From Desulfosporosinus acidiphilus SJ4 (lineage in GTDB: Bacteria > Bacillota > Desulfitobacteriia > Desulfitobacteriales > Desulfitobacteriaceae): a stretch of DNA of 64,000 nt. Made by a program: the position numbers and the translations under genes. The stretch's first letter is position 1; each line of letters starts with the position of its first letter. A model generated the notes under the pieces. It saw only the letters and a program-made list of their open reading frames with translations. It searched no databases and was not told where the DNA came from. The stretch spans positions 4,683,977-4,747,976 of the forward strand of contig NC_018068.1 in the NCBI RefSeq assembly GCF_000255115.2. The letters are read 5' to 3'. This document shows positions 632 through 62,156 of this stretch, piece by piece.

Positions 632-3600
632 CTATTTTTCAATTAACCCATTAATCTTCTGCTCAATCATCTTGCTGATTACAGCTTCTCCACCGAAAAT
701 GGCTGCACTGGTAAGTTTTTTATTCAAAAGATAATTCTCCAGCTGATCAGACATACTGTCATCAACCAACAAAATGGAAGCATTGTGATTAGCCGCATAA
801 CTGCTTCCGGCCAGGGCATCCGGAAAATTCCCGCCGGTGGCTATACAAATCGTAGGGCTGGCTAAATTAAAGTATTTGGCTGCTGCCAGGGACGTTGCAT
901 AACGGTCTGCTCCCCATATTCTCACGATATTCGCCTGGGACAAACCGCTGAGTTGTTGAATCTGACTCTCAACCGTTGAACTAATAACCCCTTCTCCGCC
1001 GATAATATAGACTTTCGAGGGCTTGATAGATTGTATTTCCTGCCTGATGCTGTCACTGATTCCGTCGTTTGAAACTAACAGGATAGGTGCTTGCATCTGG
1101 GCCGCAATGCTGCTGATGGAGAGAGCGTCGGGATAGTTTTCGCCATAGGCCAGGACGATTGGTGTCCCAGTTTTAACAGCCAATTGATCGGCAATTTTGG
1201 CTGAGGTTTCATAACGGTCTGTTCCGCCTAAACGGGTTATCTTCGTAAAGCCGCAGGCTGTTACTTTACTCTCCACTGCACTGCTGACAGCAGCCGTACC
1301 ACCTAAGATATAGACGGTTCCCGAAGAATCCAGATCATTCTTCATATAGTCCAAAACTTTTTCTTGATCAGCATCTGTACTTCCAACCAAAAGAATCGGT
1401 GCATTCAGCTTATAGGCCAGTACGCTTCCGGCTAATGCATCCGGGTAGTTTTCGGCTGTGGTCAAGATGACACTGTTCACCTTTCCTGTATAACTGGCTT
1501 TCGCGATGGCCAAAGCCGTATCAACACAACTGTTTCCTGACAGTCTTGTAACGCCGGTCAGGGGCCTGCTCATTTTAAAATCCCACTTGACGATTTCTTG
1601 TTCCACTGCAATGGTCATGCTTTTGTAGCTTTCATAGCCATCTTTAGTTGCGACGATGTAATAATCTGAATTGGGGAAGACCATGAAACCATAGGCACCG
1701 CTTTTATCACTGTCCTGAGGATTTTTATTATCATTAGGCCCAAATCCGGAGATACCCGGCAGTGCGACAACGGCATCCGGGGTTTTTCCTGAAGCCTTAT
1801 TCCTCTCAGTATCGGCATAATACAGGGTAACATGAACGCTTTCCAAAGCCTTTCCTGTAGCCGCATCAGTGATAATGCCGTAGGGGTCAATTAAAGTTGT
1901 TGTCACAGTAACGTTACCGTTACTATCGACGTTGATATCCAGAGTTCCAATCGTTATCTTCTGACCATTACCTAAATCATACGTTATAGCAAAGTTATTA
2001 TCCGTCCCTTTCGCCAAATCCGACACTTGGATTGTTCCATCGGCAGATATGGCCGCAGTCATTCCATTATTACCGGTAACAGCAATTTTAGACAAGTCCG
2101 ATAGAGAGTCTGTGGTTCCATTCGATTGTTTATACATGACGGTTTGAGCTGCCTTCATAGAAATTGTTGTTTTGCCATTACTATCGGTCATAACAGTAAC
2201 CGCTGCATTAGCCAAAGTATCACCGGAAGTGCTGTCTATGACCTTGCCGCTGATTGTTGTGGAAGTGGAAGTCGAAGTAGAAACTGGTGATGAGGAGGAA
2301 TAGGAACCGCCTCGGTTATCAGAAGATACCCCCTGTGCAGGTGAGATGATCTCAAACTCTGCCGTTATTACAACATTTGCCGCCGGCATCGTGAAGCCGG
2401 TCCCGCTGATAACATAGTTTGTAATTCCATTATTATAGACTAGTGTCCCCGGTTTTAACTGCATCCCATTATCCGGAGTTATGGTGAGGCTGATGGCTGA
2501 GCCGGATGTCGCCAATGTTGGGCTGGCTGTGATATTGCCACCTGTCAAACTTCCAATGTCTACAGAATAATAGATTGCCCCTGATGTTGTTGCGGTTGCC
2601 TCAAACTCTGCCTTTACCACAACATTTGCTGCCGGCATCGTGAAGCTGGTGCCGTTGATGGAGTGATTTGTAATTCCGTCATTATAAACCAAAGTGCCTG
2701 GTTTCAACTGCATCCCATTATCTGGAGTTATGGCGAGGCTGATGGCAGAACCAGAAGTTGCTGACGATGAGATGGCTGTTATGCTTCCGCCTGTCAAAGG
2801 GGCGATATTGACAGTGTAATAGCTTAATGGGAGCTGTCCTGATTCAGCATTAAGAAGGGCCTGATAGATTGCACCATGACCTGCAGTTGTGGGATGCGGA
2901 TCAAGCTGTATTGCTCCCAGGTTAAAGGCGACGGCTCCTGAGGTATTTCTGAATTTCGTATAAACGTCGGCGACTCGATAGCCTAACCCTGCATTATTGC
3001 TGAGCACTTGATTGATCCCCCTGATCAAGGGATCAAAAACCGGATACAACGGATCCTGTTCGCCAAAAGGATTGTAGAGATTGAGGACGTAGATTTGAGC
3101 CTGCGGGGATAGAGTTTTTATGGCTGCTATAATCTGCGGAAAATCAGTGCCGAATTGGCCGACCCCAGATTGTAAAGCTTGGCGTAAGGCTGGGGAATTA
3201 GCCAAACTGGTCAGGATGGCATTTTTGTTAGGGTTCACAGCCATTGCCGCTGCCAAATCCGCTGTTAAATTGGGACTGGCGGGGTTAACACCAAAGGCTG
3301 TACAAACTGAAGCAATGACCGGGGAAAGCAAATTATCTCCGCCTATGCTTATGGTAATTACCTTAGCATTGCCAACAGCCGTGATATATTGGGGCGTTTG
3401 TAACCTCTGCAGCAAATCGCTGCTCTTATCTCCTGATACGGCCAGATTATTTAGGGTAAGTTGACTGAAGGCGGAGTCTGCCAGCAGATGGTTATAGAAT
3501 AGATGGGAATAATCACTTCCGGTTGCAGCACTCATGCCACAGGCAATGGAATCTCCCAGGGAGAGAAATGATGAAGAGGAAGATATGGGGGGAGTAATTG

Positions 3601-6022
3601 GGGGAATATACGCCGGAACAACTACATCAGCGGCAGTACCCGCATTAAACCCTGTTCTTGCCGCATATCTTACTTGATAGGTCCCTGCTGCCAAGTCGGT
3701 GATTTCTGTAGCCAAAGCCGTAACTGGGGTGAAAGTGGCCGCTCCCTGAAGACGGTATTCCATGCTGTCACTGACTCCGGTGATTTTGCCGTCATTGTTT
3801 GCTGCCGTAGTGGGGGTGATTCCGGTTAACCCTGTGGGAGCGCCTTGGTCCTGGTTGGGTACAAGGTAGGTAAATTGGTCATTGGGACTTGGAGCACTTG
3901 TTCCGCCGGGTCCGGTCACGGTGACATCGACAAGACCGCTTCCCGCCGGAGAGGTTACTGTGATTAAGGAATCATTGATGACAGTATAGCCCGTAACGGA
4001 GGTACTGCCGAATTTCACGTCGGTAGCTCCGCTGAAACCGCTGCCGGTAATTGATACTGAAGTCCCTCCGGCAGCCGATCCACTCATTGGGCTTAGGGAT
4101 GATATTCTTGGTTTTGGTACAAGCATAATTGATGATGAACCACTTAAGGCCCCGCCTGAACCTGTGTTTCCATTGTCATTTATGGTAATAGTCAATGACC
4201 CAGGCCCTGAGTTAATATTCATCGTAACACTAACATTATTGGCCGTGATGTATGCATTGATATTTGAAATAGTACCAGTTAATTCTAAGGAAGAGGTGCC
4301 AGTTCCGCTTGCAATGACTCCCCCGCCTGAAATAGCAGAGAACGTGCTGCTTGTCGCTGTAAAATCAACTGTCACGCTGCCGCTCCCGGCATCCGTATCA
4401 CTAAAGCTTATACCTGTCAAAGGAGTGGCTTGATTTTCGTACACGGTTATGCTCCCCGGTGCAGTGACACTGGGAGAATCATTAACTGCCATTACGGATA
4501 AATCTTTTGTTACAACAATACTATTATCAGTCCCATCATTCACCACAAAGCTAACAGTTCTCATTGAAATATCCGGACTTTCGGAACTATTATTATACGT
4601 TACGGAACGCAGGGCAGCCTGCCATTGGTTGAGTGTTGCCTTAGCTCCCGCTGAAGTCAAGGTTAGCACGCCTGTGGATGCATTGGAGAAGGCCGAAATA
4701 TCTCCAAAGGTTGCCGGATCAGTATTTATAAAGCTTAGAATATCTTCTCCGACCTGGAAACCCGCCCCCAGAGACACTGTGGCACTAGCCAATGTCGTAT
4801 TATCACTATCGTTTACCGTCAGCCCCGGATCAACTGCTACAGCTGATGAACCTTCTGTGAAGGAAGTTGTTCCGCCGGAGACAGTGACGACCGGCGCAGC
4901 ATTAGTATGGCTGGGTGTGACACTGTTAGAGGAAGCAGAAGCACCACTGGTACCCACTCCATTTGCCGCAGTCACTGTAAAACTATAAGAAGTTCCGTTG
5001 ACCAACCCGGAAATTGTTATTGGACTTGCTGAGCCGGTTGCGGTTAGGCCCCCGGGATTGGAAGTTACCGTGTAGGAAGCTATTGGGCTGCCTCCGTCTG
5101 AAACCGGGGCTGTAAAGTTTACAGTTGCCCAACTGTTTCCTGCTGTGGCTGACACTCCTGTAGGCGCTCCGGGCACCGTCGCCACGACGGTTGCGGTGGC
5201 AGGAGCGCTGACATCGTCACCTACTCCTTGAGCAGTAACGGAAATCGTATTGCCTGCGCTAAAGGAGGCTGCTGAACTATATGACCAGTTCCCGCCGGCA
5301 TCGGCGGTTGCTGTCCCCAGTAGAGATCCATTTTTGCTCAGAGTTATGGCTGCATTCGCAACAGCCGTACCGGACACAGCTTTTGACCCCGCTGTAATAG
5401 GTGTTGATATGGTCGGAGCCGCTGTTTGTCCCGGAATGTAGTTGATATTGCCGATTCCCAAAGAAATATCCGGACCCGTAATTCTGATCTCATCAATACC
5501 CGTCCAATTGTTAAAGGTTAGAGTTCCTGAGATTCCGCCACTGCAATCATAGGTAATGGACCCAGCAGATGTGCCCGACTTTGGAGTTTCAAAGTTAATG
5601 GTATCGGAATAACGCTGAGTACCATCGGCATATCCGGTAATGGTATAATTAGAACCCATAATGAAAAAATCTTCAGCCTGCATTGAACTAATCTGAAACT
5701 TCGTACTATCCGTTTTCCTGATTCTGAAGTCTACATTACCAGGTACGTATGACCCGCTTGTGTCTATATTAAACCCTAGCGCCGGAGCAATGCTGAACAA
5801 TGAACCATTCAAACACATGGGTCCGCCGCCCGGCGCGTTGACTGAAAATGTGAAGCCGTCATAACTAGCACCGCTAAATATATCTTGGGTTGATGCGGGT
5901 AAGTTAACAGTATTCGCCATTGCTATCCTGCTCCCAAGAATACTAAAAAGAAGCGTCAAGATAATTAGACCAGAGGCCTGCACCCATAGACGCACCGCCC
6001 CCTTTGCCCTGTTAAAAGTCAT
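632..6022 (-). CDS. Giant secreted CWB2 surface protein with embedded SGNH hydrolase
   Basis: About 1796 residues. Start chosen at the ATG at 6022, because GGAGG lies at 6034-6030 with 7-nt spacing; the longer reading from 6040 would place this ribosome site inside the gene. Order: signal peptide (1-37), an N-terminal beta-rich region, a fibronectin III-like domain (about 280-370), cadherin/VCBS-like stretches, an IPT/TIG domain (about 640-720), an SGNH/GDSL hydrolase (about 812-1065: SLGDS, GGDN, and D-P-H near the end as the catalytic Asp/His), two InlB-type B-repeats (about 1066-1225), a carboxypeptidase-regulatory-like region, and three CWB2 (PF04122) repeats (about 1489-1796). CWB2 repeats anchor proteins non-covalently to secondary wall polymers, so this is probably a wall-bound adhesin or esterase. 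The last about 540 residues resemble those of the second CWB2 protein in the window. Confidence 0.9.
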   Translation of the reverse strand: MTFNRAKGAVRLWVQASGLIILTLLFSILGSRIAMANTVNLPASTQDIFSGASYDGFTFSVNAPGGGPMCLNGSLFSIAPALGFNIDTSGSYVPGNVDFRIRKTDSTKFQISSMQAEDFFIMGSNYTITGYADGTQRYSDTINFETPKSGTSAGSITYDCSGGISGTLTFNNWTGIDEIRITGPDISLGIGNINYIPGQTAAPTISTPITAGSKAVSGTAVANAAITLSKNGSLLGTATADAGGNWSYSSAASFSAGNTISVTAQGVGDDVSAPATATVVATVPGAPTGVSATAGNSWATVNFTAPVSDGGSPIASYTVTSNPGGLTATGSASPITISGLVNGTSYSFTVTAANGVGTSGASASSNSVTPSHTNAAPVVTVSGGTTSFTEGSSAVAVDPGLTVNDSDNTTLASATVSLGAGFQVGEDILSFINTDPATFGDISAFSNASTGVLTLTSAGAKATLNQWQAALRSVTYNNSSESPDISMRTVSFVVNDGTDNSIVVTKDLSVMAVNDSPSVTAPGSITVYENQATPLTGISFSDTDAGSGSVTVDFTATSSTFSAISGGGVIASGTGTSSLELTGTISNINAYITANNVSVTMNINSGPGSLTITINDNGNTGSGGALSGSSSIMLVPKPRISSLSPMSGSAAGGTSVSITGSGFSGATDVKFGSTSVTGYTVINDSLITVTSPAGSGLVDVTVTGPGGTSAPSPNDQFTYLVPNQDQGAPTGLTGITPTTAANNDGKITGVSDSMEYRLQGAATFTPVTALATEITDLAAGTYQVRYAARTGFNAGTAADVVVPAYIPPITPPISSSSSFLSLGDSIACGMSAATGSDYSHLFYNHLLADSAFSQLTLNNLAVSGDKSSDLLQRLQTPQYITAVGNAKVITISIGGDNLLSPVIASVCTAFGVNPASPNLTADLAAAMAVNPNKNAILTSLANSPALRQALQSGVGQFGTDFPQIIAAIKTLSPQAQIYVLNLYNPFGEQDPLYPVFDPLIRGINQVLSNNAGLGYRVADVYTKFRNTSGAVAFNLGAIQLDPHPTTAGHGAIYQALLNAESGQLPLSYYTVNIAPLTGGSITAISSSATSGSAISLAITPDNGMQLKPGTLVYNDGITNHSINGTSFTMPAANVVVKAEFEATATTSGAIYYSVDIGSLTGGNITASPTLATSGSAISLTITPDNGMQLKPGTLVYNNGITNYVISGTGFTMPAANVVITAEFEIISPAQGVSSDNRGGSYSSSSPVSTSTSTSTTISGKVIDSTSGDTLANAAVTVMTDSNGKTTISMKAAQTVMYKQSNGTTDSLSDLSKIAVTGNNGMTAAISADGTIQVSDLAKGTDNNFAITYDLGNGQKITIGTLDINVDSNGNVTVTTTLIDPYGIITDAATGKALESVHVTLYYADTERNKASGKTPDAVVALPGISGFGPNDNKNPQDSDKSGAYGFMVFPNSDYYIVATKDGYESYKSMTIAVEQEIVKWDFKMSRPLTGVTRLSGNSCVDTALAIAKASYTGKVNSVILTTAENYPDALAGSVLAYKLNAPILLVGSTDADQEKVLDYMKNDLDSSGTVYILGGTAAVSSAVESKVTACGFTKITRLGGTDRYETSAKIADQLAVKTGTPIVLAYGENYPDALSISSIAAQMQAPILLVSNDGISDSIRQEIQSIKPSKVYIIGGEGVISSTVESQIQQLSGLSQANIVRIWGADRYATSLAAAKYFNLASPTICIATGGNFPDALAGSSYAANHNASILLVDDSMSDQLENYLLNKKLTSAAIFGGEAVISKMIEQKINGLIEK
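2350..2830 (-). repeat. Tandem InlB-type B-repeat coding duplication
   Basis: Two consecutive segments of about 230-245 bases encode near-identical units sharing TSGSAISL, ITPDNGMQLKPGTLVYN and FTMPAANVV. They lie between the SGNH hydrolase and the pre-CWB2 region. High identity indicates recent internal duplication, as is usual in wall-protein spacer regions. Confidence 0.8.
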
Positions 6023-6088
6023 ACTTTTTCCTCCATTCATGTTACTAATATGATTCGCACATTTATAAGCCTAGGTGATTGATATTAA

Positions 6089-6122
6089 ATTTTACCAAGG
6101 TCCTCTAACAGGATTCTAACAG
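6089..6122 (-). promoter_or_regulatory. 11-bp-period direct repeat plus -10 box: candidate SARP operator/promoter
   Basis: On the minus strand CTGTTAGA occurs at 6122-6115 and again at 6111-6104, an exact 11-base period. Nine bases further is TAAAAT (6094-6089), a plausible -10 box, about 67 bases before the CWB2 start at 6022. SARP-type activators are known to bind direct repeats of 11-bp period just upstream of -10. The gene immediately upstream encodes a SARP-like response regulator. Binding is inferred, not shown. The rest of 6123-6255 holds nothing clear. Confidence 0.5.
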
Positions 6123-6345: not shown

Positions 6346-7467
6346 CTATTTTATTTGATCATAGAAACTATTAACTACCCCTATGATCTGAGCCGAAGGA
6401 ACTGTGCCGTATTCCTCTCTGAGAATTCTTGTCAGCCATTGGTAATGGTTTGTAACTCCCCGATAATCACCTTGATCTGCAAGTAACGCTAACAGTCGGC
6501 AATTGATTTCTTCATCGTAAGGCTCTAAGCCGGCCAGGAGCTTCAAAACCCTTAATACCTTAACATTATTTCCCTCTATTAAATAGGCAGCCATAATCTC
6601 TTTCAGGCTCAGGGCAAGTCTCCTTCTCAATTCTTCATCCTTTTCCAAGCTCCATACATATCCCTGCCGGGGCAGAAAACCCCCGGCAAACTGCTTACAA
6701 GCCTTTTCCACCGCCTCATAAACTGCTTTATCCCCCGTCTTGTATTGGGATAAGACCTTTTCCGCTTCAAGGTAATCACATTCGGCCCGGGAAATAGAGA
6801 GGCAGTATTTTCCTCTGTTGAAATTCAGTGTCACCTCTCTTTTATTCCGAGAGAAGACACTCCTGATTTTACAAATAGAGGTTTGCAGGATCGCCAATGC
6901 TTTTGCATACTCATATCCCGGCCAGAGGTCTTGAATTATCGTATCTTTATGTATATACCTGCCATGGTTCATGAGGAGATAAGCAAAAAGTTCTTCAGCC
7001 TTAGCCCGCTCCCATTTCACAGGATTATCTCCGATGCTGACTTCCAATTGATCAAAACATTTAATTTTAAGGTCTGAAGAGGATTGAAGCGAAACCTTTA
7101 ATTGCACTTCCTTCTGAATCTTAGCAGCCATCCTTTGGAAACGTTCAAGTTTGATCGGTTTCATCACATAATCCAGGGCATTCAAATCAAAGGCTTGGAT
7201 AGCGTACTGATCCCAGGCAGTTATAAAAACAATCCTCATTGAAGGCTCCTTTTCCATAAGCTTTTCCGCAAGAGTTATCCCGTCCATTTCCAGCATCCCG
7301 ATATCAATAAACGCCACCTGGGGAGAGATAACTGTTACTTCTTCCAAGGCCCTAACCGGGTTTTGATACTTCCCTTCGACGGACATAAAACCCGTCTTTG
7401 CAACCAGCTTGCTTATTTCTTCGAGATTATACCATTCATCATCGACAATAATACATTTGATCATCAT
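6346..7467 (-). CDS. Response regulator with REC, winged-helix and BTAD (SARP-like) domains
   Basis: About 373 residues. Start taken at the ATG at 7467, since AAGGTG with 6-nt spacing precedes it and overlaps the alternative GTG at 7476. The N-terminal receiver (about 1-118) shows the acidic pocket VDDE, phosphoacceptor Asp in AFIDIG, Thr in FITAW and Lys in VMKPI. A Trans_reg_C-type winged helix follows (about 135-215: WERAKAEELFAYLLMN, DLWPG), then a bacterial transcriptional activation domain (about 220-370). This REC-wHTH-BTAD layout is a response-regulator version of Streptomyces antibiotic regulatory proteins. The kinase gene lies 50 bases upstream in the same direction. The giant CWB2 gene downstream is the likely target, since an 11-bp-period repeat precedes it. 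Confidence 0.85.
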   Translation of the reverse strand: MMIKCIIVDDEWYNLEEISKLVAKTGFMSVEGKYQNPVRALEEVTVISPQVAFIDIGMLEMDGITLAEKLMEKEPSMRIVFITAWDQYAIQAFDLNALDYVMKPIKLERFQRMAAKIQKEVQLKVSLQSSSDLKIKCFDQLEVSIGDNPVKWERAKAEELFAYLLMNHGRYIHKDTIIQDLWPGYEYAKALAILQTSICKIRSVFSRNKREVTLNFNRGKYCLSISRAECDYLEAEKVLSQYKTGDKAVYEAVEKACKQFAGGFLPRQGYVWSLEKDEELRRRLALSLKEIMAAYLIEGNNVKVLRVLKLLAGLEPYDEEINCRLLALLADQGDYRGVTNHYQWLTRILREEYGTVPSAQIIGVVNSFYDQIK

Positions 7468-7517
7468 ATCTTTCACCTTGCTTAAATTACTCTTTTGTCT
7501 CCAAGGACAAAGAATGC

Positions 7518-9257
7518 TTAGATACCGTTCAAAGACACTGTCATCGAACGAATTGGCTCTTCTTGCAGATCCAACTGATGGTTATTTTTTAATAGTACAG
7601 AAAAAGCCACTGAAGTACCCTGCCCTCTGACGCTGACGATATTCAGACCCTCGCCGTAACATTTTAAGAGCCGCTTATGGATATTGATCAGACCTACGCC
7701 GGTCTTTTGCTCATCATTGATTTCTAAAGCGTTGATTTGTTCTTCCCCCATCCCTACTCCGTCATCTTGAATTTCAAAGTTGATTTTTCCGCCTTCACAG
7801 CGAATTGTCAGCTTGACATTACCACCCTCAGACTTTTTCAGTATTCCATGCCGGATTGCATTTTCTACCAATGGCTGAAGGACAAGCCGGGGAATTTTAA
7901 GATCGGGAATTTTATCACAAATAACCTGGAAATTCAGCCGTTCCCCGAATCTGGCCTTTTCAATCGCCACATAAGTATTCACTATCTCTAGTTCCTTTTC
8001 CAACGCTGCCATTAATGAGGTACTGTCGAAGTAACAGCAGCTTGACAGGTATTCGCCAAGATTGCCGATAAGGTTTTTAGCCTCTTCCGGATTCACGGTG
8101 ATCATGGAGGCAATTACGCTGAGGGTATTATTCAAAAAGTGGGGCTTTATCTGAGCCTGGAGAAACGACATCTCGTTGGTTTCCGCTTTCGTTAGAGCCA
8201 TGGAAGCCATAGCTTCCAGCCTCTTTTGATGTTCCACAAACAATGTCACATCATTGATCGTAAGTATCTTGCCGATTTGAAGACCATCCTCCGTTAGAAT
8301 TTCCGTGATTTCAGCCGAGAAATAGCCCTCTTCTCCATTGATCATTCGTTGATATTGCAACTTATCATTGCCTTCCGAAAGGCCGTTCAGCTCCGGATGA
8401 GCCTGAATAAAAGAAGCAAAGGTATATTTATCGGATAGTTTATTTAACTCCGGATAAATCTTTAAAAAAGCATCATTAACATCAATGAGTCTGTCTGTCA
8501 AATCTATGAGTAAGGTCCCTTCCTTAGAATTTCGGAATACAATTTGCATAGCCAAGGGGATTGTCCTAAAGACTCTAAACTTAAAAATTCCAAAGGCATA
8601 TAAAAGACCGGAAAAAATTGAAACCACCGGATAGTAATCAATACCTAAATAACTTGTATTAGTTGCATCTAAATAGACAGAAAACCAGGGAAGCAAAGAA
8701 GCCAAGATCATAATGATATGACCGTAGCGATGCAGACGCGGTGAATGGAGATAAGCACGAATATAGAAAAACGTGGCTATCAAGCCCATCAAGGTGCCGG
8801 AAGCAACCATCAGTATGTAAAGCACACCTTTACTGGAAACGATCACTGGAAAATAATCATTACTTACAAACCGATAGACAGGAATATAGAGATGATGCCA
8901 ACGGTTTGTAAAATAAATTACAAGATAGGAAACCGGATGGTAAAGCATAATATACTTCGCCATTTTTAGAAACCTTTTGGGTGCACGGACATACTCTAGA
9001 CTCATCATCAGCCAGAAATAATGTTCAAGTGGAATGGCCAGGTGCTCAAGATCAAACCAAACCATTGCAGTCGAAAGACTTGCAGAATTAATTTCTCCGA
9101 TATATCCTCCGTTATAGACTATTGCCGCGAGCATCAGCAAGATAAAGTAATTGGCACCCGGCACGGTTCTTCTTTTGCAGGCATATCTTATCAGGAATAT
9201 GGCACAAGGCAATGATGCCGCAAGCAAAAAGGTATAGGCAATTCTTACAATATTCAT
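7518..9257 (-). CDS. LytS-type sensor histidine kinase, 7TM plus PAS
   Basis: 579 residues, ATG preceded by GAGGAT. The N-terminal about 215 residues form seven hydrophobic segments typical of the histidine-kinase 7TM sensor module. A PAS-like domain follows (about 225-330), then a His_kinase (PF06580) domain with the phosphoacceptor His in QAQIKPHFLNNTL (about residue 372), and an HATPase with N-box LVLQPLVENAIRHG (about 460) and glycine-rich DDGVGMG. It most likely phosphorylates the SARP-like regulator encoded 50 bases downstream. The ligand is unknown; the 7TM module suggests a membrane-soluble or extracellular signal. Confidence 0.88.
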   Translation of the reverse strand: MNIVRIAYTFLLAASLPCAIFLIRYACKRRTVPGANYFILLMLAAIVYNGGYIGEINSASLSTAMVWFDLEHLAIPLEHYFWLMMSLEYVRAPKRFLKMAKYIMLYHPVSYLVIYFTNRWHHLYIPVYRFVSNDYFPVIVSSKGVLYILMVASGTLMGLIATFFYIRAYLHSPRLHRYGHIIMILASLLPWFSVYLDATNTSYLGIDYYPVVSIFSGLLYAFGIFKFRVFRTIPLAMQIVFRNSKEGTLLIDLTDRLIDVNDAFLKIYPELNKLSDKYTFASFIQAHPELNGLSEGNDKLQYQRMINGEEGYFSAEITEILTEDGLQIGKILTINDVTLFVEHQKRLEAMASMALTKAETNEMSFLQAQIKPHFLNNTLSVIASMITVNPEEAKNLIGNLGEYLSSCCYFDSTSLMAALEKELEIVNTYVAIEKARFGERLNFQVICDKIPDLKIPRLVLQPLVENAIRHGILKKSEGGNVKLTIRCEGGKINFEIQDDGVGMGEEQINALEINDEQKTGVGLINIHKRLLKCYGEGLNIVSVRGQGTSVAFSVLLKNNHQLDLQEEPIRSMTVSLNGI

Positions 9258-54310: not shown

Positions 54311-57300
54311 TTATTGCCCTACGAGCTTTGACAATTCCTGCTGTATTTCCTGGCTTATTACAGCGTCTCCACCAAATATAGTTACCCCAGATAATTTTCT
54401 ACTCTTTAAATAATTTATTTGATCATCTGACAAGGTTTTATCTGCAAGAATAACAGGCGCATTATAGTTTGATGCATAGATACTACCCGCTAAAGCGTCG
54501 GGAAAATTATTTCCAGTAGCAATACATATGCTTTGACCTGATAAATTAAAGTATTTTCCTACTGCTAATGAAGTTTCATACCTATCTATTCCGCCTAATC
54601 TGATGATATTGTTATTAGCCAAAGACGTTAAATCAGCTATCTGATTTTTAATACCATCACTTATTGCACCTGTACCCCCTATAATATATACCTTACTTGG
54701 TTTTATTTTTGCAAATTCTGCTTTAACTAAATCATTAAATCCATCTTTACCAACGAGAAGAATTGGAAACTGATTTATAGATGCTGCGCTACTTACTGAT
54801 AAAGCATCAGGATAATTTTCGCCTAATGCAACTACAACAGGAGTTCTTTCGGGCACATCCAAGTAATCCACTATTTTTGCATCAGTTTCATATCTATCGT
54901 AACCACCAAGCCTTTTTATATTATAGAACCCTGCTGCATTGACTTTTTGAACAAATGCCTCACTCACAACAGCAGTTTGCCCGAGAATGAAGACATTTAC
55001 TGACGTATCAGCATAACTTTTTAAATAATCTATTACTTTATCTTGATCCGATTGTGAATCTCCAACAAGAAGTATAGGGGCATTCTGTTGATATGCTAAT
55101 ACACTTCCTACCAAAGCATCAGGGTAGTTATCCGCTGTTGCCAGGACGACACTTTTAACTTTTTCACTAAACTCTGATTTTGCAAGTTCTATAGCAGTAT
55201 CTACTCTAGACTCTCCACCTAATCTTAATATCCCTGTGACTGGGTGATTCATTTTAGCAGAGTACTTAACTTGTTTGTCAGCAACGGAAATCGTAGGACT
55301 AGTCAATGTATCATAGTCTTCTTTGACTGCGACTATATAGTAATCGGTATTAGGATATACCAAAAAGCCATATGTTCCGTAAATATCAGTTGTCTGTGGA
55401 TTTTGATTATTATTAGGTTTAAATCCATTAATAGCTGGAAGTTTAACTGCTGTGTTTGGAATTATTCCTGCTGCTATATTTCTAGATGTGTCAGCATAAT
55501 AAAGAGTTACATTTACCCCACTTATAACTTTGCCGGATACTGAATCCGTCAACGTTCCATAAGGGTCTATCAAATTAGAAGTCATATTTACGTTACCAGC
55601 ACCATCGACTGATATATGCATATTGCCAATCATAATTTTCTGACCATTACCCATATCATAAGTTACAGGAACGTCATAACTGCTGCCTTTTACCAAATTA
55701 CTAACTTGAACAGTTCCATCCGAATTAATAATTACAGGTACATTTGAAGGTGCAATATACCCAATTTTTGAGTAATCCTCAAAAGGAGCAATGCTGCCAT
55801 CTGGCTGCTTTATTACTACAGCGTCTGACTGCTTTACACTGATAGTATCCGTGCCATCTGTGTTGACTGCTACCATTGCATTAATTGAAGCTACAGGGCT
55901 ACTGTTATTGATATTACCATTTGATTCATCCACAACATTAGCTGTAATTGTCGCTCCTGATGAAGAACCTGTCCCAGATCCAGGTGAGCCTCCATTTTCA
56001 TGTGAATTTGACGGAGCTGTTGGTGTTACTGCATTTGTCGCACTTGATGCCGCGCTATTGCCGACACTATTCGCAGCTTTTACGTCAAATGTATATGCGG
56101 TTCCATTGGTAAGTCCGGTTATCGCTGCTGAAGTTGTTGTTGAACCTGTATTCACTGTATTTACTAAAGTAGTGTTTTTATAAACATCTACTAAGTAATC
56201 TGTGATAGGACTTCCTCCGTCATTGGCCGGAGCCGTCCAGGTTACTGAGGCACTGGCATTTCCTGCTGTTGCGCTCACATTTGTCGGTGCATCGGGTACT
56301 GTAGCTGCTGCTGTTGGTGTCACTGCACTTGTCGCACTTGATGCCGCGCTATTGCCGACACTATTTACAGCTTTTACGTCAAATGTATATGCGGTTCCAT
56401 TGGTAAGTCCGGTTATCGCTGCTGAGGTTGTTGTTGAACCTGTATTCACTGTATTTACTAAAGTAGTGTTTTTATAAACATCTACTAAGTAATCTGTGAT
56501 AGGACTTCCTCCGTCACTGGCTGGAGCCGTCCAGGTTACTGAAGCACTGGCATTTCCTGCTGTTGCTCTTACATTTGTTGGTGCATCGGGTACTGTAGCT
56601 GCTGCTGTTGGGGTTACTGCACTTGTCGCACTTGATGCCGCGCTATTGCCGACACTATTTACAGCTTTTACGTCAAATGTATATGCGGTTCCATTGGTAA
56701 GTCCGGTTATCGCTGCTGAAGTTGTTGTTGAACCTGTATTCACTGTATTTACTAAAGTAGTGTTTTTATAAACATCTACTAAGTAATCTGTGATAGGACT
56801 TCCTCCGTCACTGGCTGGAGCCGTCCAGGTTACTGAGGCACTGGCATTTCCTGCTGTTGCTCTTACATTTGTTGGTGCATCGGGTACTGTTACTGGTGCC
56901 CATTGCGCATACAATGCTAAATTTACCGTCAAATTAAAGGTTTCACCTGCTGCATAGGCTGTTCCGCTTCCATTAGCTTCTGTGTTCCATCCTGTAAAAT
57001 TATACCCTGATTTCACAAGATGTCCTGTGTTGCCTGATACCGTTACTTGAGAACCTAAACTAACATTAAAACTGCTGGGTACAGTCCCTCCCGTGCTGCC
57101 ATTATCAATATAAGTAACGGACTTGGTGCTTGTAGCTCTAAAAACAGGAATAAGCGTTGTATTCTGTGTTACGGATAATGGATATGGATTGCTTGTTGAT
57201 GCAGTACCGGTACCTCCGTCCACATAATCCCACTCACTAAACATATACCCGTCATTGGGAATAGCTGTAAGGGTAACATTAGTCCCTGACGCATATGCGT

Positions 57301-58780
57301 CACCATAGATTGTACCCCCATTTACAGTACCTCCAGTTGCCGCATTAACTTTCAGCATATAAATCGTTGAGGAAGCAGTTTCTAATGCTCCCACAGTTGG
57401 TGTTGCTGTTCTGGAAATATTATCTTGATCTGTGGTTACCTCGTAGCCTGTAGAATTACTGCCAATCAGGTCTACCCAATTTGTCCCATTATTATATCCT
57501 ATGACAGGGCTGCCATTCCCATCTGTAAAGCCTGTTTTGGCACCCTTGAATAAGGCGAAACTACCTGTTTTAAGTAGTGCTGTAGGTGTATTAATACCAT
57601 TTGCCTTTGCTAATATTGGCTGAAAGATGGTTTTAGTTCCGATTGTCTGTCCATTGCCGTTTAACACCAGCGCGTTAATGCCGTTGGTAAATATGCTATT
57701 GTCCGAGCCATCGGCATTCCCGGAGTATTGAGTATTTCCTATAACATTATTGATTTTTGTGGCACCCATTGGAGCATGGAAAATGCAGTAATATGAATTT
57801 ATGGGGACACATGAAGAATAATCCGATATATCATTTAGAACATAATTTGTGCCATTAAATTGATAATTATAAGCAAACAAACAGTTTAAAGCAGTTGAAG
57901 TACCACCGTTATTCGCAATAGCCCCACCATCAAAACCAGTTCCATAGGCTACATTTCCTGTAAATGTACTATTTACGAAGTATGCAACTGAGCCTGGCCT
58001 ATTATTTATGGCTCCTCCCAGTTCAGTACTTTTATTATTGGAAAATGTTGAATTATTAACATAGAGGGTCCCATTATTTTGCCCGCCTCCGCCTCCACCT
58101 TGTGCACTTGTACTTCTATTCTCGCTTATGGTGCTATTTTCAATAAACATAGTAGAACCTGATGTATTTAAAAACCCGCCGCCGAATTCTGCAGCATTTC
58201 TACTGATATTACTATCCTTAAGATAAACAGTGCCTCCATTATTTACAATTCCACCGCCATAAGTACCACTACCGTAACTGCTACTATCGTAAGCCCTTGA
58301 ATTTGAAACATCAATATTGTTAAGCTCAAGAACTGTACCAGTGTTATTAAGTATACCTGCTCCTTTACCGGTTGTTGCTGTAGATCCATTATAGCTAATG
58401 CAACCGCCCTTAATCGTCAAATCGTTAATTTCAACAGTTTTTCCAGGTACATTGATATTAAAAACTCTAAAAGTAGATGGGTTAGTATTATAAATACCCG
58501 AATCATCCAGCCCTGGAACAGGTACAGTAATGATATGATTATTACCTTCAATATTTAAAGCCTTGCTGATATCGACTTCTGATGTAATAGTGACATTGTT
58601 TGTAAAGTTTATCGTATCACCATCCACTGCATTATTAATTGCGGCTGTCAATGATGAGTTATCTGATACATTATGGATTACAGCTGCCTGTACCTTATTT
58701 GTTACCCCACCAATCATCGTTAAAATCATACAAATCATTACAATTAACGAAATGATTCTTTTTTGCTTTTTTCCCTTCAT
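54311..58780 (-). CDS. Second giant CWB2 surface protein, beta-helix and FN3 type
   Basis: 1489 residues. Signal peptide (1-32), a right-handed parallel beta-helix region (about 35-470) with repeated NNGGTVYL- and NNSTFSNN-like turns as in Pmp/pectate-lyase-like passenger proteins, an InlB-like B-repeat (about 473-550), a second Flg_new-type repeat ending in YAQW (about 553-630), three nearly identical fibronectin III domains (about 633-925), a conserved pre-CWB2 region (about 945-1175) and three CWB2 repeats (about 1180-1489). The last about 540 residues resemble the other CWB2 protein; the N-terminal halves differ. Probably wall-anchored adhesin. The best ribosome site (GGGGGG) is about 14 bases before ATG. 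Confidence 0.9.
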   Translation of the reverse strand: MKGKKQKRIISLIVMICMILTMIGGVTNKVQAAVIHNVSDNSSLTAAINNAVDGDTINFTNNVTITSEVDISKALNIEGNNHIITVPVPGLDDSGIYNTNPSTFRVFNINVPGKTVEINDLTIKGGCISYNGSTATTGKGAGILNNTGTVLELNNIDVSNSRAYDSSSYGSGTYGGGIVNNGGTVYLKDSNISRNAAEFGGGFLNTSGSTMFIENSTISENRSTSAQGGGGGGQNNGTLYVNNSTFSNNKSTELGGAINNRPGSVAYFVNSTFTGNVAYGTGFDGGAIANNGGTSTALNCLFAYNYQFNGTNYVLNDISDYSSCVPINSYYCIFHAPMGATKINNVIGNTQYSGNADGSDNSIFTNGINALVLNGNGQTIGTKTIFQPILAKANGINTPTALLKTGSFALFKGAKTGFTDGNGSPVIGYNNGTNWVDLIGSNSTGYEVTTDQDNISRTATPTVGALETASSTIYMLKVNAATGGTVNGGTIYGDAYASGTNVTLTAIPNDGYMFSEWDYVDGGTGTASTSNPYPLSVTQNTTLIPVFRATSTKSVTYIDNGSTGGTVPSSFNVSLGSQVTVSGNTGHLVKSGYNFTGWNTEANGSGTAYAAGETFNLTVNLALYAQWAPVTVPDAPTNVRATAGNASASVTWTAPASDGGSPITDYLVDVYKNTTLVNTVNTGSTTTSAAITGLTNGTAYTFDVKAVNSVGNSAASSATSAVTPTAAATVPDAPTNVRATAGNASASVTWTAPASDGGSPITDYLVDVYKNTTLVNTVNTGSTTTSAAITGLTNGTAYTFDVKAVNSVGNSAASSATSAVTPTAAATVPDAPTNVSATAGNASASVTWTAPANDGGSPITDYLVDVYKNTTLVNTVNTGSTTTSAAITGLTNGTAYTFDVKAANSVGNSAASSATNAVTPTAPSNSHENGGSPGSGTGSSSGATITANVVDESNGNINNSSPVASINAMVAVNTDGTDTISVKQSDAVVIKQPDGSIAPFEDYSKIGYIAPSNVPVIINSDGTVQVSNLVKGSSYDVPVTYDMGNGQKIMIGNMHISVDGAGNVNMTSNLIDPYGTLTDSVSGKVISGVNVTLYYADTSRNIAAGIIPNTAVKLPAINGFKPNNNQNPQTTDIYGTYGFLVYPNTDYYIVAVKEDYDTLTSPTISVADKQVKYSAKMNHPVTGILRLGGESRVDTAIELAKSEFSEKVKSVVLATADNYPDALVGSVLAYQQNAPILLVGDSQSDQDKVIDYLKSYADTSVNVFILGQTAVVSEAFVQKVNAAGFYNIKRLGGYDRYETDAKIVDYLDVPERTPVVVALGENYPDALSVSSAASINQFPILLVGKDGFNDLVKAEFAKIKPSKVYIIGGTGAISDGIKNQIADLTSLANNNIIRLGGIDRYETSLAVGKYFNLSGQSICIATGNNFPDALAGSIYASNYNAPVILADKTLSDDQINYLKSRKLSGVTIFGGDAVISQEIQQELSKLVGQ
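56007..56888 (-). repeat. Three 294-bp tandem repeats encoding FN3 domains
   Basis: The unit boundary GTGCATCGGGTACTGT recurs at 56875, 56581 and 56287, exactly 294 bases apart (98 codons). Units are almost identical at DNA level, which favours copy-number change by recombination. Open frames on the opposite strand repeat with the same period and are shadows. Confidence 0.92.
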
Positions 58781-59236: not shown

Positions 59237-59270
59237 ATATTAAAACAATTACCCTAAATGAACCCTAAAT
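59237..59270 (-). promoter_or_regulatory. 11-bp-period direct repeat plus -10 box: candidate SARP operator/promoter 2
   Basis: On the minus strand ATTTAGGGT occurs at 59270-59262 and 59259-59251, an exact 11-base period. Eight bases further is TAATAT (59242-59237), a candidate -10. The ribosome site of the degenerate receiver gene starts about 25 bases later. The geometry matches the repeat before the first CWB2 gene, and both share a TTAG core. Confidence 0.5.
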
Positions 59271-59271
59271 C

Positions 59272-59312
59272 AGAAGCGGCCTATAGGAACGATTCTCCTA
59301 CAGGCCGCTTCT
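59272..59312 (-). terminator. Terminator of the second kinase-regulator transcript
   Basis: AGAAGCGGCCT (59272-59282) pairs with AGGCCGCTTCT (59302-59312) and the stem continues inward imperfectly (AGGAACGATTCTCCT). It lies after the SARP-like regulator gene and just before the operator repeats. Confidence 0.7.
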
Positions 59313-59373
59313 CTCAAAGTCTTATATTTCATGGGTTTTCGCCATTTTGTTATATATTTACAAAAAATATTTT

Positions 59374-60222
59374 TTATTCCGCCAATACTTTTCTGCACAA
59401 ATCATCAAGTTCGGCCGCTCTCGGGTAGGCCCAGCCATACCCGCTGGCTTCCATATATCCTTTCAGCACCAGCTCTTCTAGCAAGCGCAAGCCTGCATTG
59501 CTTTTTAGCTGACTGTTTTTGAGCATCTCTTCAAGACGGTAAACATCACAATCGAATTTGTCCGCCACAATTCTGTAATTGCCCCGTTCGCTTTTCAGAA
59601 TCTGAGCCAGTCCTGCTTCCGCCAGCCTTTTCCGCAGTAAATAGTTGGTGGCATGAAAGTTCGCCTGGGCCTTTTCGGAGTTAAAGTCCGGCCAAACAGC
59701 ATCCGTGATCTTTTCCCAACCCACCGGCACTCCTTTTTTATATACTAAAAACGCCAATACTTCCTTGGCTTTAGAGCTCTTCCAGGTCAGCGCTTTACCG
59801 TTTAAAAACACATCAAAACCGCCCAGGCATTGAATAAATGGTTTTTCCTGAGGCCTTGCCCTCCTCTTGGTTTTTAATAAGCGCTTGATGGTTTTACCCA
59901 GTCTTTCTTCCGTCATGGGCTTCATGATGTAATCCATGGCCTGTAATTCAAAAGCCTCAACCGCATATTGATTAAATGCCGTGACAAAAATGATGTCTAT
60001 GTTTTCATTTAGGTTTTGGATTTGCTCAGATAATTCAAGACCGCTCACGCCCGGCATCTCGATATCCAGGAAAACGGCATCCAGGGGGTTCTTCCTTAAA
60101 TAGGCCAGCAGCTGTTCTCCGGTTTCAAACAAACCGCACACACTGAGCTCCGGCACACCTGCAGCCATCCTGGCGAATCGTTCCAGCACATGTGTTTCAT
60201 CGTCTACTGCCGCAATCCTCAT
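59374..60222 (-). CDS. SARP-like response regulator, short form
   Basis: 282 residues from ATG at 60222 (GGAGG upstream), overlapping the kinase stop as ATGA. The receiver (about 1-115) has VDDE, phosphoacceptor Asp in AVFLDIEMPG, Thr in FVTAFN and Lys in IMKPMT. The winged helix (about 128-220) has LTWKSSKAKEVLAFLVYKKG and VWPDF. The following BTAD-like part is cut to about 60 residues, far shorter than in the regulator at 6346. It should respond to the overlapping kinase and act on the CWB2 unit downstream. Confidence 0.85.
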   Translation of the reverse strand: MRIAAVDDETHVLERFARMAAGVPELSVCGLFETGEQLLAYLRKNPLDAVFLDIEMPGVSGLELSEQIQNLNENIDIIFVTAFNQYAVEAFELQAMDYIMKPMTEERLGKTIKRLLKTKRRARPQEKPFIQCLGGFDVFLNGKALTWKSSKAKEVLAFLVYKKGVPVGWEKITDAVWPDFNSEKAQANFHATNYLLRKRLAEAGLAQILKSERGNYRIVADKFDCDVYRLEEMLKNSQLKSNAGLRLLEELVLKGYMEASGYGWAYPRAAELDDLCRKVLAE

Positions 60223-62156
60223 TGTAATCCAACCTCCGGTATCCATAATTTTACGCAGGTACGTCCTGGCTCACTACTTATTTCCAGACCTCTACCATAT
60301 AATTTGAGCAACCGGTTGTGAATATTAAGCAGTCCTACCCCTTGAGCCGATCCGAAATCGGTGAAGAGCACGGCCAGCTTTTCGCTGTTGATGCCAGGAC
60401 CGTCGTCTTCAATCTCTATGTAAATACTCTCATCTTGCTGCATCATCCGCACGCTTACTCTACCGCCGCCCGGCTGTTTGGAAATACCGTGCCTGACGGC
60501 ATTTTCAACCAGCGGCTGGAGAATAAGCACCGGTATTTGCACATCCAAAGGTATTTCCACCTTTTTCTGCAGCTGGATCTTGTGTCCGAAACGCGCCTGC
60601 TCAATATGGAAGTATGTATCGATAAATTCCAGTTCTTTTTCGATCGTCGCCATTTTGTCCATATTGTTAAACTGCAGACTGCCCCGCAAATAGAGAGCCA
60701 AGTCGATGATCAGCTTGCCTGCCTGCCTCCCGTCCTTTTCACATACATTGGCAATGGCGCTGAGCGCATTGTAGAGAAAATGCGGCTTGATCTGAGCCTG
60801 TAAGAACGACATCTCTGTCGCCATGATCTGATCTTTCAGGCTGTCCGCCTCAAGCAGCTTTTCATTGTACAAAATAAGCTTTTTGTGGTTCACGGCCTGC
60901 TGTCGCGCCAGTACATAGGACATGGCCAAAATGACCGCGAAATTCCCGAGTAAGAACATACAAGATAAATTCATGCTGCCAAGCGATATGAAATCGATGA
61001 TATCCTCATTCATAGTCCAAATCAGGAGGCAGATGGCAATGAACATTAAAATCGCATTGTCTCTTTTCCGGAGTACGGCCTTCACCAGCACACCCAGAAT
61101 ATAAAGCATTTGTAAAAGCAAAAGAATGTATAGAACATTCGTGTAAAATGACATTAACTCAGGGCTCTTAATCAAAAGGAATATATCAAAATCAAGACTG
61201 GGAAGCAGGAGCAGGCCCATTATCTTTTTATTAAATTCCAATGGGTATAAGCTGTAAACAAACAACATCACAATCGCCGCAAAATTATAGCCCGTAAAAT
61301 AGTTCAGATACATTCGCAGGTTCACGGACGCGTTGGGCATGAGTATCAACAGAGGGATTTCACCCCATCCCAGGGAACGCAAGGCCGTTACAAAACAGAA
61401 AATGGCCAAAAGCAGGGATGTCTTGTCTTTGGTCTGAAGGAGAAACAGAAACAAATAATGAATGGCAAATATTAAGATGCCGCCGATGAAGAGCATCTGC
61501 AAGATGATCAAAATCATTCTCTGCCGCTCCAAAGTCTGCTTTGAACCAAACACAGGGACAACGCGAAGCCCTCCGGTGGCACAATTCAAATTGCCCACCT
61601 GAAATATTAGGTCAATCTTCTGGGTATCCTTCGGCAAATCAATAATGATGATTTTGTCATCGTTTTTGAAGTTGGCCCTGCTGTCCAAGCCGCTTCCAGC
61701 CGCTGCCATCAGTTGTCCGTTGACATATAACTTATAAGCATTGGCAACACCTGAAATGCGCAGAGCAGGTTCCTTCAAGGTCGAGGGATACTCAAAGGAC
61801 AGCCTGTAGGTGGCGAAACCCTGAGCTGTATAATGGGTGCCGACATTATTAGACCAGACGCCCGGAACTTTCATGAATGAATCCATTTTTGGCCTTTGTC
61901 CGGAATTAAAATCTTCCGGCGCCAGCAGTTTGTTCCAATAGAATTCCCACTGTCCATTTAATGAAACTAATTTATCGTGAGTGAAATCGACTCCTGACAA
62001 ATCCGCCCTGCCGTTTTGGACAATGAACGGGGTGGGTGATAACAGCATAAGCAGCGTATAAAGCATTATGGCCGGAACGATTATGACGAGCAGTATCCGC
62101 CATTTTAAGCTGGGTTTTATCCATCCCTTTTTTAGATTCACAATTCTGCCATTCAC
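60219..62156 (-). CDS. LytS-type histidine kinase with extracellular jelly-roll and 7TM module
   Basis: 645 residues. One TM (about 20-42), an extracellular beta-rich domain (about 45-205: LSGVDF, SLNGQWEFYWNKLL, GFATYRLSFEYP, LYVNGQLMAAAG) resembling galactose-binding-like 7TMR-DISM ectodomains, seven TM helices (about 212-415), a coiled linker, His_kinase (QAQIKPHFLYNALSA, His about 457) and HATPase (LQPLVENAVRHGI, about 555). The ectodomain suggests an outside ligand, perhaps a sugar or wall fragment. It is translationally coupled to the regulator by a 4-base overlap. Confidence 0.88.
   Translation of the reverse strand: MNGRIVNLKKGWIKPSLKWRILLVIIVPAIMLYTLLMLLSPTPFIVQNGRADLSGVDFTHDKLVSLNGQWEFYWNKLLAPEDFNSGQRPKMDSFMKVPGVWSNNVGTHYTAQGFATYRLSFEYPSTLKEPALRISGVANAYKLYVNGQLMAAAGSGLDSRANFKNDDKIIIIDLPKDTQKIDLIFQVGNLNCATGGLRVVPVFGSKQTLERQRMILIILQMLFIGGILIFAIHYLFLFLLQTKDKTSLLLAIFCFVTALRSLGWGEIPLLILMPNASVNLRMYLNYFTGYNFAAIVMLFVYSLYPLEFNKKIMGLLLLPSLDFDIFLLIKSPELMSFYTNVLYILLLLQMLYILGVLVKAVLRKRDNAILMFIAICLLIWTMNEDIIDFISLGSMNLSCMFLLGNFAVILAMSYVLARQQAVNHKKLILYNEKLLEADSLKDQIMATEMSFLQAQIKPHFLYNALSAIANVCEKDGRQAGKLIIDLALYLRGSLQFNNMDKMATIEKELEFIDTYFHIEQARFGHKIQLQKKVEIPLDVQIPVLILQPLVENAVRHGISKQPGGGRVSVRMMQQDESIYIEIEDDGPGINSEKLAVLFTDFGSAQGVGLLNIHNRLLKLYGRGLEISSEPGRTCVKLWIPEVGLQ

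Follow-up and report, generated by a model that had tools for sequence, protein, structure and literature searches.

A direct repeat with an 11-bp step as the probable SARP-type operator of a surface-protein operon beside a two-component system in Desulfosporosinus acidiphilus

In Desulfosporosinus acidiphilus SJ4, a pair of direct repeats lying just upstream of a -10-like hexamer is very probably the SARP-type operator of an activator-dependent promoter, which drives an operon for a CWB2 surface protein through the adjacent receiver-SARP regulator. The site was examined within a stretch of 64,000 nucleotides, here called the window, and the layout that it exemplifies is found again downstream of numerous related regulators among Clostridia-type bacteria.

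Read on the minus strand from 59270 to 59237, the site consists of ATTTAGGGT-TC-ATTTAGGGT-AATTGTTT-TAATAT, with AATTGTTT forming the 8 bp between the downstream repeat and the -10 (Table 1). An earlier, sequence-only reading of the window had pointed to a repeat with an 11-base step and to a TAATAT located 8 bases beyond it; the repeat proved to be exact, with both copies of ATTTAGGGT present on the minus strand, and the hexamer was found where described, at 59242-59237. The TAATAT of the window agrees with TATAAT at only four of six positions, and relatives carry TATAAT, TATGAT or TAAGAT in its place, giving the hexamer pattern TAnnnT. No -35 hexamer was seen 16-18 bp away at the three sites checked, where one or two of six positions matched. 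Reckoned from the -10, the upstream repeat spans approximately -40 to -32.

Table 1. Features of the window that bear on the site and on module 1
Feature	Coordinates	Strand	Basis
Upstream direct repeat ATTTAGGGT, overlapping the -35 position	59262..59270	-	Unchanged in 16/16 homologous sites
Downstream direct repeat ATTTAGGGT, 11-bp step	59251..59259	-	Identical in 12/16 sites; others with 1-2 changes
-10-like hexamer TAATAT, 8 bp past repeat	59237..59242	-	8-bp spacing in 16/16 sites
Hairpin with 13-bp stem, its end exactly 5 nt from box	59276..59308	-	Compensatory changes, pairing
Conserved block GAAAACC.nTTGATATATAAGGcTTT (relatives), also read GAAAACC..TTGATATATAAGG	59316..59342	-	Alignments
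Response regulator: receiver, SARP-type winged helix, truncated BTAD; presumed activator	59374..60246	-	Pfam REC, profile, fold
LytS-type sensor histidine kinase (7TMR-DISM, His_kinase, HATPase_c)	60219..62156	-	Pfam
Receiver-like ORF, frameshifted in window, intact in L035 and L036	58854..59202	-	Three-frame translation, relatives
Target: secreted 1489-aa protein with 3 fn3, InlB-type repeats, 3 CWB2 repeats	54311..58780	-	Pfam
Module 1 box: CTGTTAGA twice, 11-bp step, 9 bp, TAAAAT	6089..6122	-	Sequence, background scan
Module 1 response regulator: receiver, SARP winged helix, full BTAD	6346..7476	-	Pfam
Module 1 sensor histidine kinase	7518..9257	-	Pfam
Module 1 target: 1802-aa CWB2 surface protein	632..6040	-	Pfam

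The site keeps company with its regulator. Seven of the 82 genomes of the class, that of the window included, have the regulator, and six of the 82, all of them among those seven, carry the site with one mismatch or none (hypergeometric P 2e-8), while the seventh regulator-bearing genome has a diverged copy of the site in the same place. Desulfosporosinus acididurans, Clostridium thailandense, Clostridium tagluense and two MAGs have orthologues of the regulator with 67-77% identity, and in every relative examined, whether Desulfosporosinus, Clostridium or MAG, the site lies downstream of the orthologous response-regulator gene; in one MAG and in another genome of this genus the site has diverged. 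Extending the search to 225 genomes around C. tagluense brought in two more genomes, each having two sites that lie upstream of secreted proteins. A further site with one mismatch, at L089, falls within a coding region and was taken as chance. Altogether, 16 sites give a gap-free alignment that runs from a hairpin's 3' arm through the -10 hexamer, and in every one of them the repeats have the 11-bp step. At one locus, L092, the copy comes after a CWB2 gene rather than after the regulator, and in D. acididurans (L035, positions 2260 and 6978) the promoter cassette and the start of a pseudo-receiver gene are duplicated, flanking the kinase-regulator operon. The L092 copy and the two L035 copies argue that hairpin and box travel together.

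In all 16 sites exactly 5 nt separate the end of that hairpin from the first repeat. Nine of its 13 pairs have changed on both sides and 97.4% of cells are paired, versus 34-51% when the arms are slid, so that pairing itself appears, from the alignment, to be under selection. Approximately 12 nt upstream of the stem, at a near-fixed distance and in nearly all copies, is the GAAAACC block, which by eye has only a partial resemblance to Spo0A boxes and to sigma-D type promoters and is possibly a second promoter or regulator site. An operator alone does not account for the conserved hairpin and upstream block. These elements lend themselves to a rival explanation, which we consider improbable, namely that the hairpin, the upstream block and the AUUUAGGGU repeats make up an RNA element, a leader or terminator transcribed from an upstream promoter, in which the repeats are no DNA operator at all. 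The strong covariation of the hairpin, its invariant 5 nt to the repeat and the conservation of the block all speak for such an element, as does the L092 copy, which by following a CWB2 gene shows that the element is something other than just the regulator operon's 3' end; however, in each of the 16 sites a -10 follows the repeats at promoter spacing, receiver-SARP genes that are not orthologues retain a repeat and a -10 with other repeat sequences and mostly without the hairpin, and a search of five relatives brought up no Rfam family here at the gathering cut-off. The simplest idea for the hairpin beside a SARP-type operator is a terminator that shields the promoter from readthrough; a terminator scan made no call at the hairpin, and its T-tract is weak.

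The identity of the protein that would bind the repeat is suggested by the neighbouring genes. The kinase and regulator genes overlap, and a profile search with the effector domain of the regulator gave EmbR as the best PDB match (E 8e-8), ahead of OmpR-type proteins. An AlphaFold2 model of the regulator (mean pLDDT 80) had as its best PDB matches AfsR, with a Z of 14.3 (147 residues, 2.8 A), and EmbR, with a Z of 13.7. Based on these fold and profile matches, the SARP domain starts with an OmpR-type winged helix. Its BTAD part is shorter than that of AfsR or of the module 1 regulator, with only the first part present; this part aligns structurally to AfsR and EmbR, and Pfam gives no BTAD score there. 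No Pfam match to a LytTR domain was found in the regulator.

Repeat geometry alone is no proof of SARP binding, since OmpR/PhoB-type activators use a similar one; because the geometry of the pho box is similar, it is the regulator, and not the repeat alone, that supports the SARP assignment. There is a second rival, as improbable as the RNA element, in which a different regulator with an OmpR/PhoB-type winged helix binds the 11-bp repeats upstream of the -10. It draws on the shared winged-helix fold and on the general knowledge that a pho box has two 11-bp repeats in place of a -35, but the site is found only where the receiver-SARP gene occurs, and adjoining it, and in the fold comparison AfsR and EmbR alone cover the whole effector, BTAD part included, whereas OmpR-type proteins cover the winged helix only.

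At one mismatch or fewer, the 20-bp site has a single occurrence in the 5-Mb genome. A background scan of 464 kb on both strands, made up of 400 kb of sampled stretches of this genome plus the window, sought repeats of at least 8 bases with an 11-bp step and a -10-like hexamer 7-10 bp downstream. It returned five matches, four of them at three receiver-SARP genes (the ATTTAGGGT site, module 1, the mirror image of module 1 and, in a sampled stretch, the site of a third regulator) and one unrelated. The sequence-only reading had named, as grounds for giving up its view, such repeats being common upstream of unrelated genes, and the scan of 464 kb, with its one unrelated match, did not refute that view. 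A mere chance repeat beside a fortuitous -10 can practically be dismissed, for short 11-bp repeats are found elsewhere (24 in 928 kb of strand) but conservation across genera and co-occurrence with the regulator refute this reading. A wider regulon of the ATTTAGGGT box was also sought in the genome, by allowing three mismatches and demanding a -10; the one weak extra match, of which a near-identical copy exists in a relative as well, was taken as background.

Module 1, the other unit of the window, has CTGTTAGA at 6122-6115 and 6111-6104 and TAAAAT at 6094-6089, and the BTAD of its regulator scores above the Pfam cut-off. The one orthologue of module 1 in the genus has neither box nor CWB2 gene downstream, so the module 1 box is without phylogenetic support. 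A third receiver-SARP regulator of the genome is followed by two copies of TTTGTTGAG; the three such regulators found in the genome therefore all have a downstream repeat (3/3), in each case of a different sequence. Finding the same geometry twice downstream of SARP-like regulators had been held to make chance less likely, and this is borne out, the third regulator having it too. The distance from a TTAG core to the -10, given earlier as 10-11 bases, is indeed 11 bp at the ATTTAGGGT site and 10 bp in module 1; the core is present in both modules, as claimed, but its being shared is incidental, every regulator having its own box sequence. One box common to both modules was considered and is ruled out by the differences among ATTTAGGGT, CTGTTAGA and TTTGTTGAG. 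With a separate box for each regulator, one would not expect either to bind the box of the other, and mutual regulation of the two modules seems, judging from the sequences, unlikely.

Downstream regions in the class were scored for the layout at a shuffle P of <=0.02, and it was present at seven of 17 non-orthologous receiver-SARP genes versus none of 12 LytTR-type controls (P 0.012). In an out-of-sample set from the Clostridiales, drawn after the criterion had been fixed and containing several members that are mutually orthologous, it was present in 14/29 versus 5/145 with control spacings (P 4e-9). This enrichment, across the class and in the Clostridiales, makes the case for a non-chance layout stronger than originally stated. 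Frequent boxes among the receiver-SARP genes are TTTGTCAGA, TTTGTGAGA, TTGTTTAGA and TTTGGTGAA, and the genes downstream of the layout are mostly secreted or surface proteins, including collagen-binding adhesins, a lectin-like protein and CWB2 proteins, with a GGDEF protein as an exception. No publication on receiver-SARP operators in Firmicutes was found in a search of largely open-access literature.

The first ORF past the promoter, ahead of the CWB2 gene, is the receiver-like one, in which Arg or Trp occupies the position of the phospho-accepting Asp, marking it as a pseudo-receiver. The description of the repeat as preceding a CWB2 unit needs one correction, in that the frameshifted receiver-like ORF intervenes. 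Within the gene for the CWB2 protein, the three fn3 repeats (56000-56900 of the window, minus strand) are near-identical at the DNA level. Across the orthologue group, the downstream genes encode a CWB2 protein, an NHL-propeller protein, a secreted deacetylase-like protein, csrA followed by flagellin, or flagellin directly, several of these family names having been assigned by reading the sequence and not by profile search. At L038 and L082 (G028), csrA is present in two and three tandem copies between the box and the flagellin genes, and at L039 a c-di-GMP-I riboswitch (3641-3736) lies approximately 350 bp upstream of a kinase-regulator operon with a flagellin target. Control of an antibiotic biosynthesis cluster is not indicated, as the neighbours are surface proteins, flagellin and csrA.

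We infer activation and, by analogy with AfsR, regulator binding, its dependence on phosphorylation and a contact with polymerase or sigma. The LytS-type kinase would phosphorylate the adjacent receiver-SARP response regulator, two protomers of which would bind head to tail on the same face of the DNA, one on the repeat that overlaps the missing -35 and the other on the repeat located 8 bp before the -10, within the spacer. Once bound, the protomers may recruit RNA polymerase through its sigma region 4, in the manner of AfsR, which would turn on the downstream operon for the CWB2 surface protein.

SARP activators are known mainly from actinomycetes, and SARP-type operators have so far been described for antibiotic regulators of Streptomyces; here, two-component systems that neighbour surface-protein and adhesin genes of Firmicutes would have the SARP operator code as their output. 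The arrangement can be put as a sequence rule, i.e., regulator gene, 11-bp repeat, 8-9 bp and -10, which predicts the target and the box of uncharacterised regulators. Across the orthologues a single box is followed by many different genes, which shows one promoter cassette reused for different targets. There is about an even chance that the receiver-SARPs of the class of Desulfosporosinus and of the Clostridiales form one large two-component family with private 11-bp-repeat operators beside their own surface-protein or adhesin operons and that, in the branch studied here, operator, hairpin and upstream block move together as one cassette with a second layer of control.

In published SARP operators the repeats are spaced by 11 or 22 bp, and 8 bp separate the 3' repeat from the -10 (PMC10936776). 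Among the closest known systems, the afs box of AfsR and the operators of the Streptomyces SARPs ActII-ORF4, DnrI and RedD resemble the present site in having direct repeats one DNA turn apart, and they further resemble it in the 8 bp between 3' repeat and -10, in an upstream repeat lying over the -35, in a poor -35 and in an activator of SARP fold (PMC10936776). Unlike in Streptomyces, a two-component receiver with its own kinase here has the SARP domain as its output, the BTAD of that domain is truncated, the organism is a Firmicute of the Desulfosporosinus type, a surface protein is the target and the box has a covarying hairpin right beside it. The mycobacterial EmbR shares the SARP winged helix and the BTAD fold; it has an FHA domain at its C terminus, responds to Ser/Thr kinases and, unlike the regulator at this site, has no receiver. 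PhoB is a winged-helix response regulator that acts on two 11-bp direct repeats, the pho box, in place of a -35, but it has no BTAD part, recognizes a different box and governs a global phosphate regulon as opposed to one adjacent operon. Response regulators of the VirR/LytTR type, such as VirR of Clostridium perfringens with its VirR boxes, likewise use direct repeats upstream of promoters; VirR differs from the regulator at this site in its LytTR DNA-binding domain, and the 12 LytTR-type regulators tested were without the 11-bp layout downstream.
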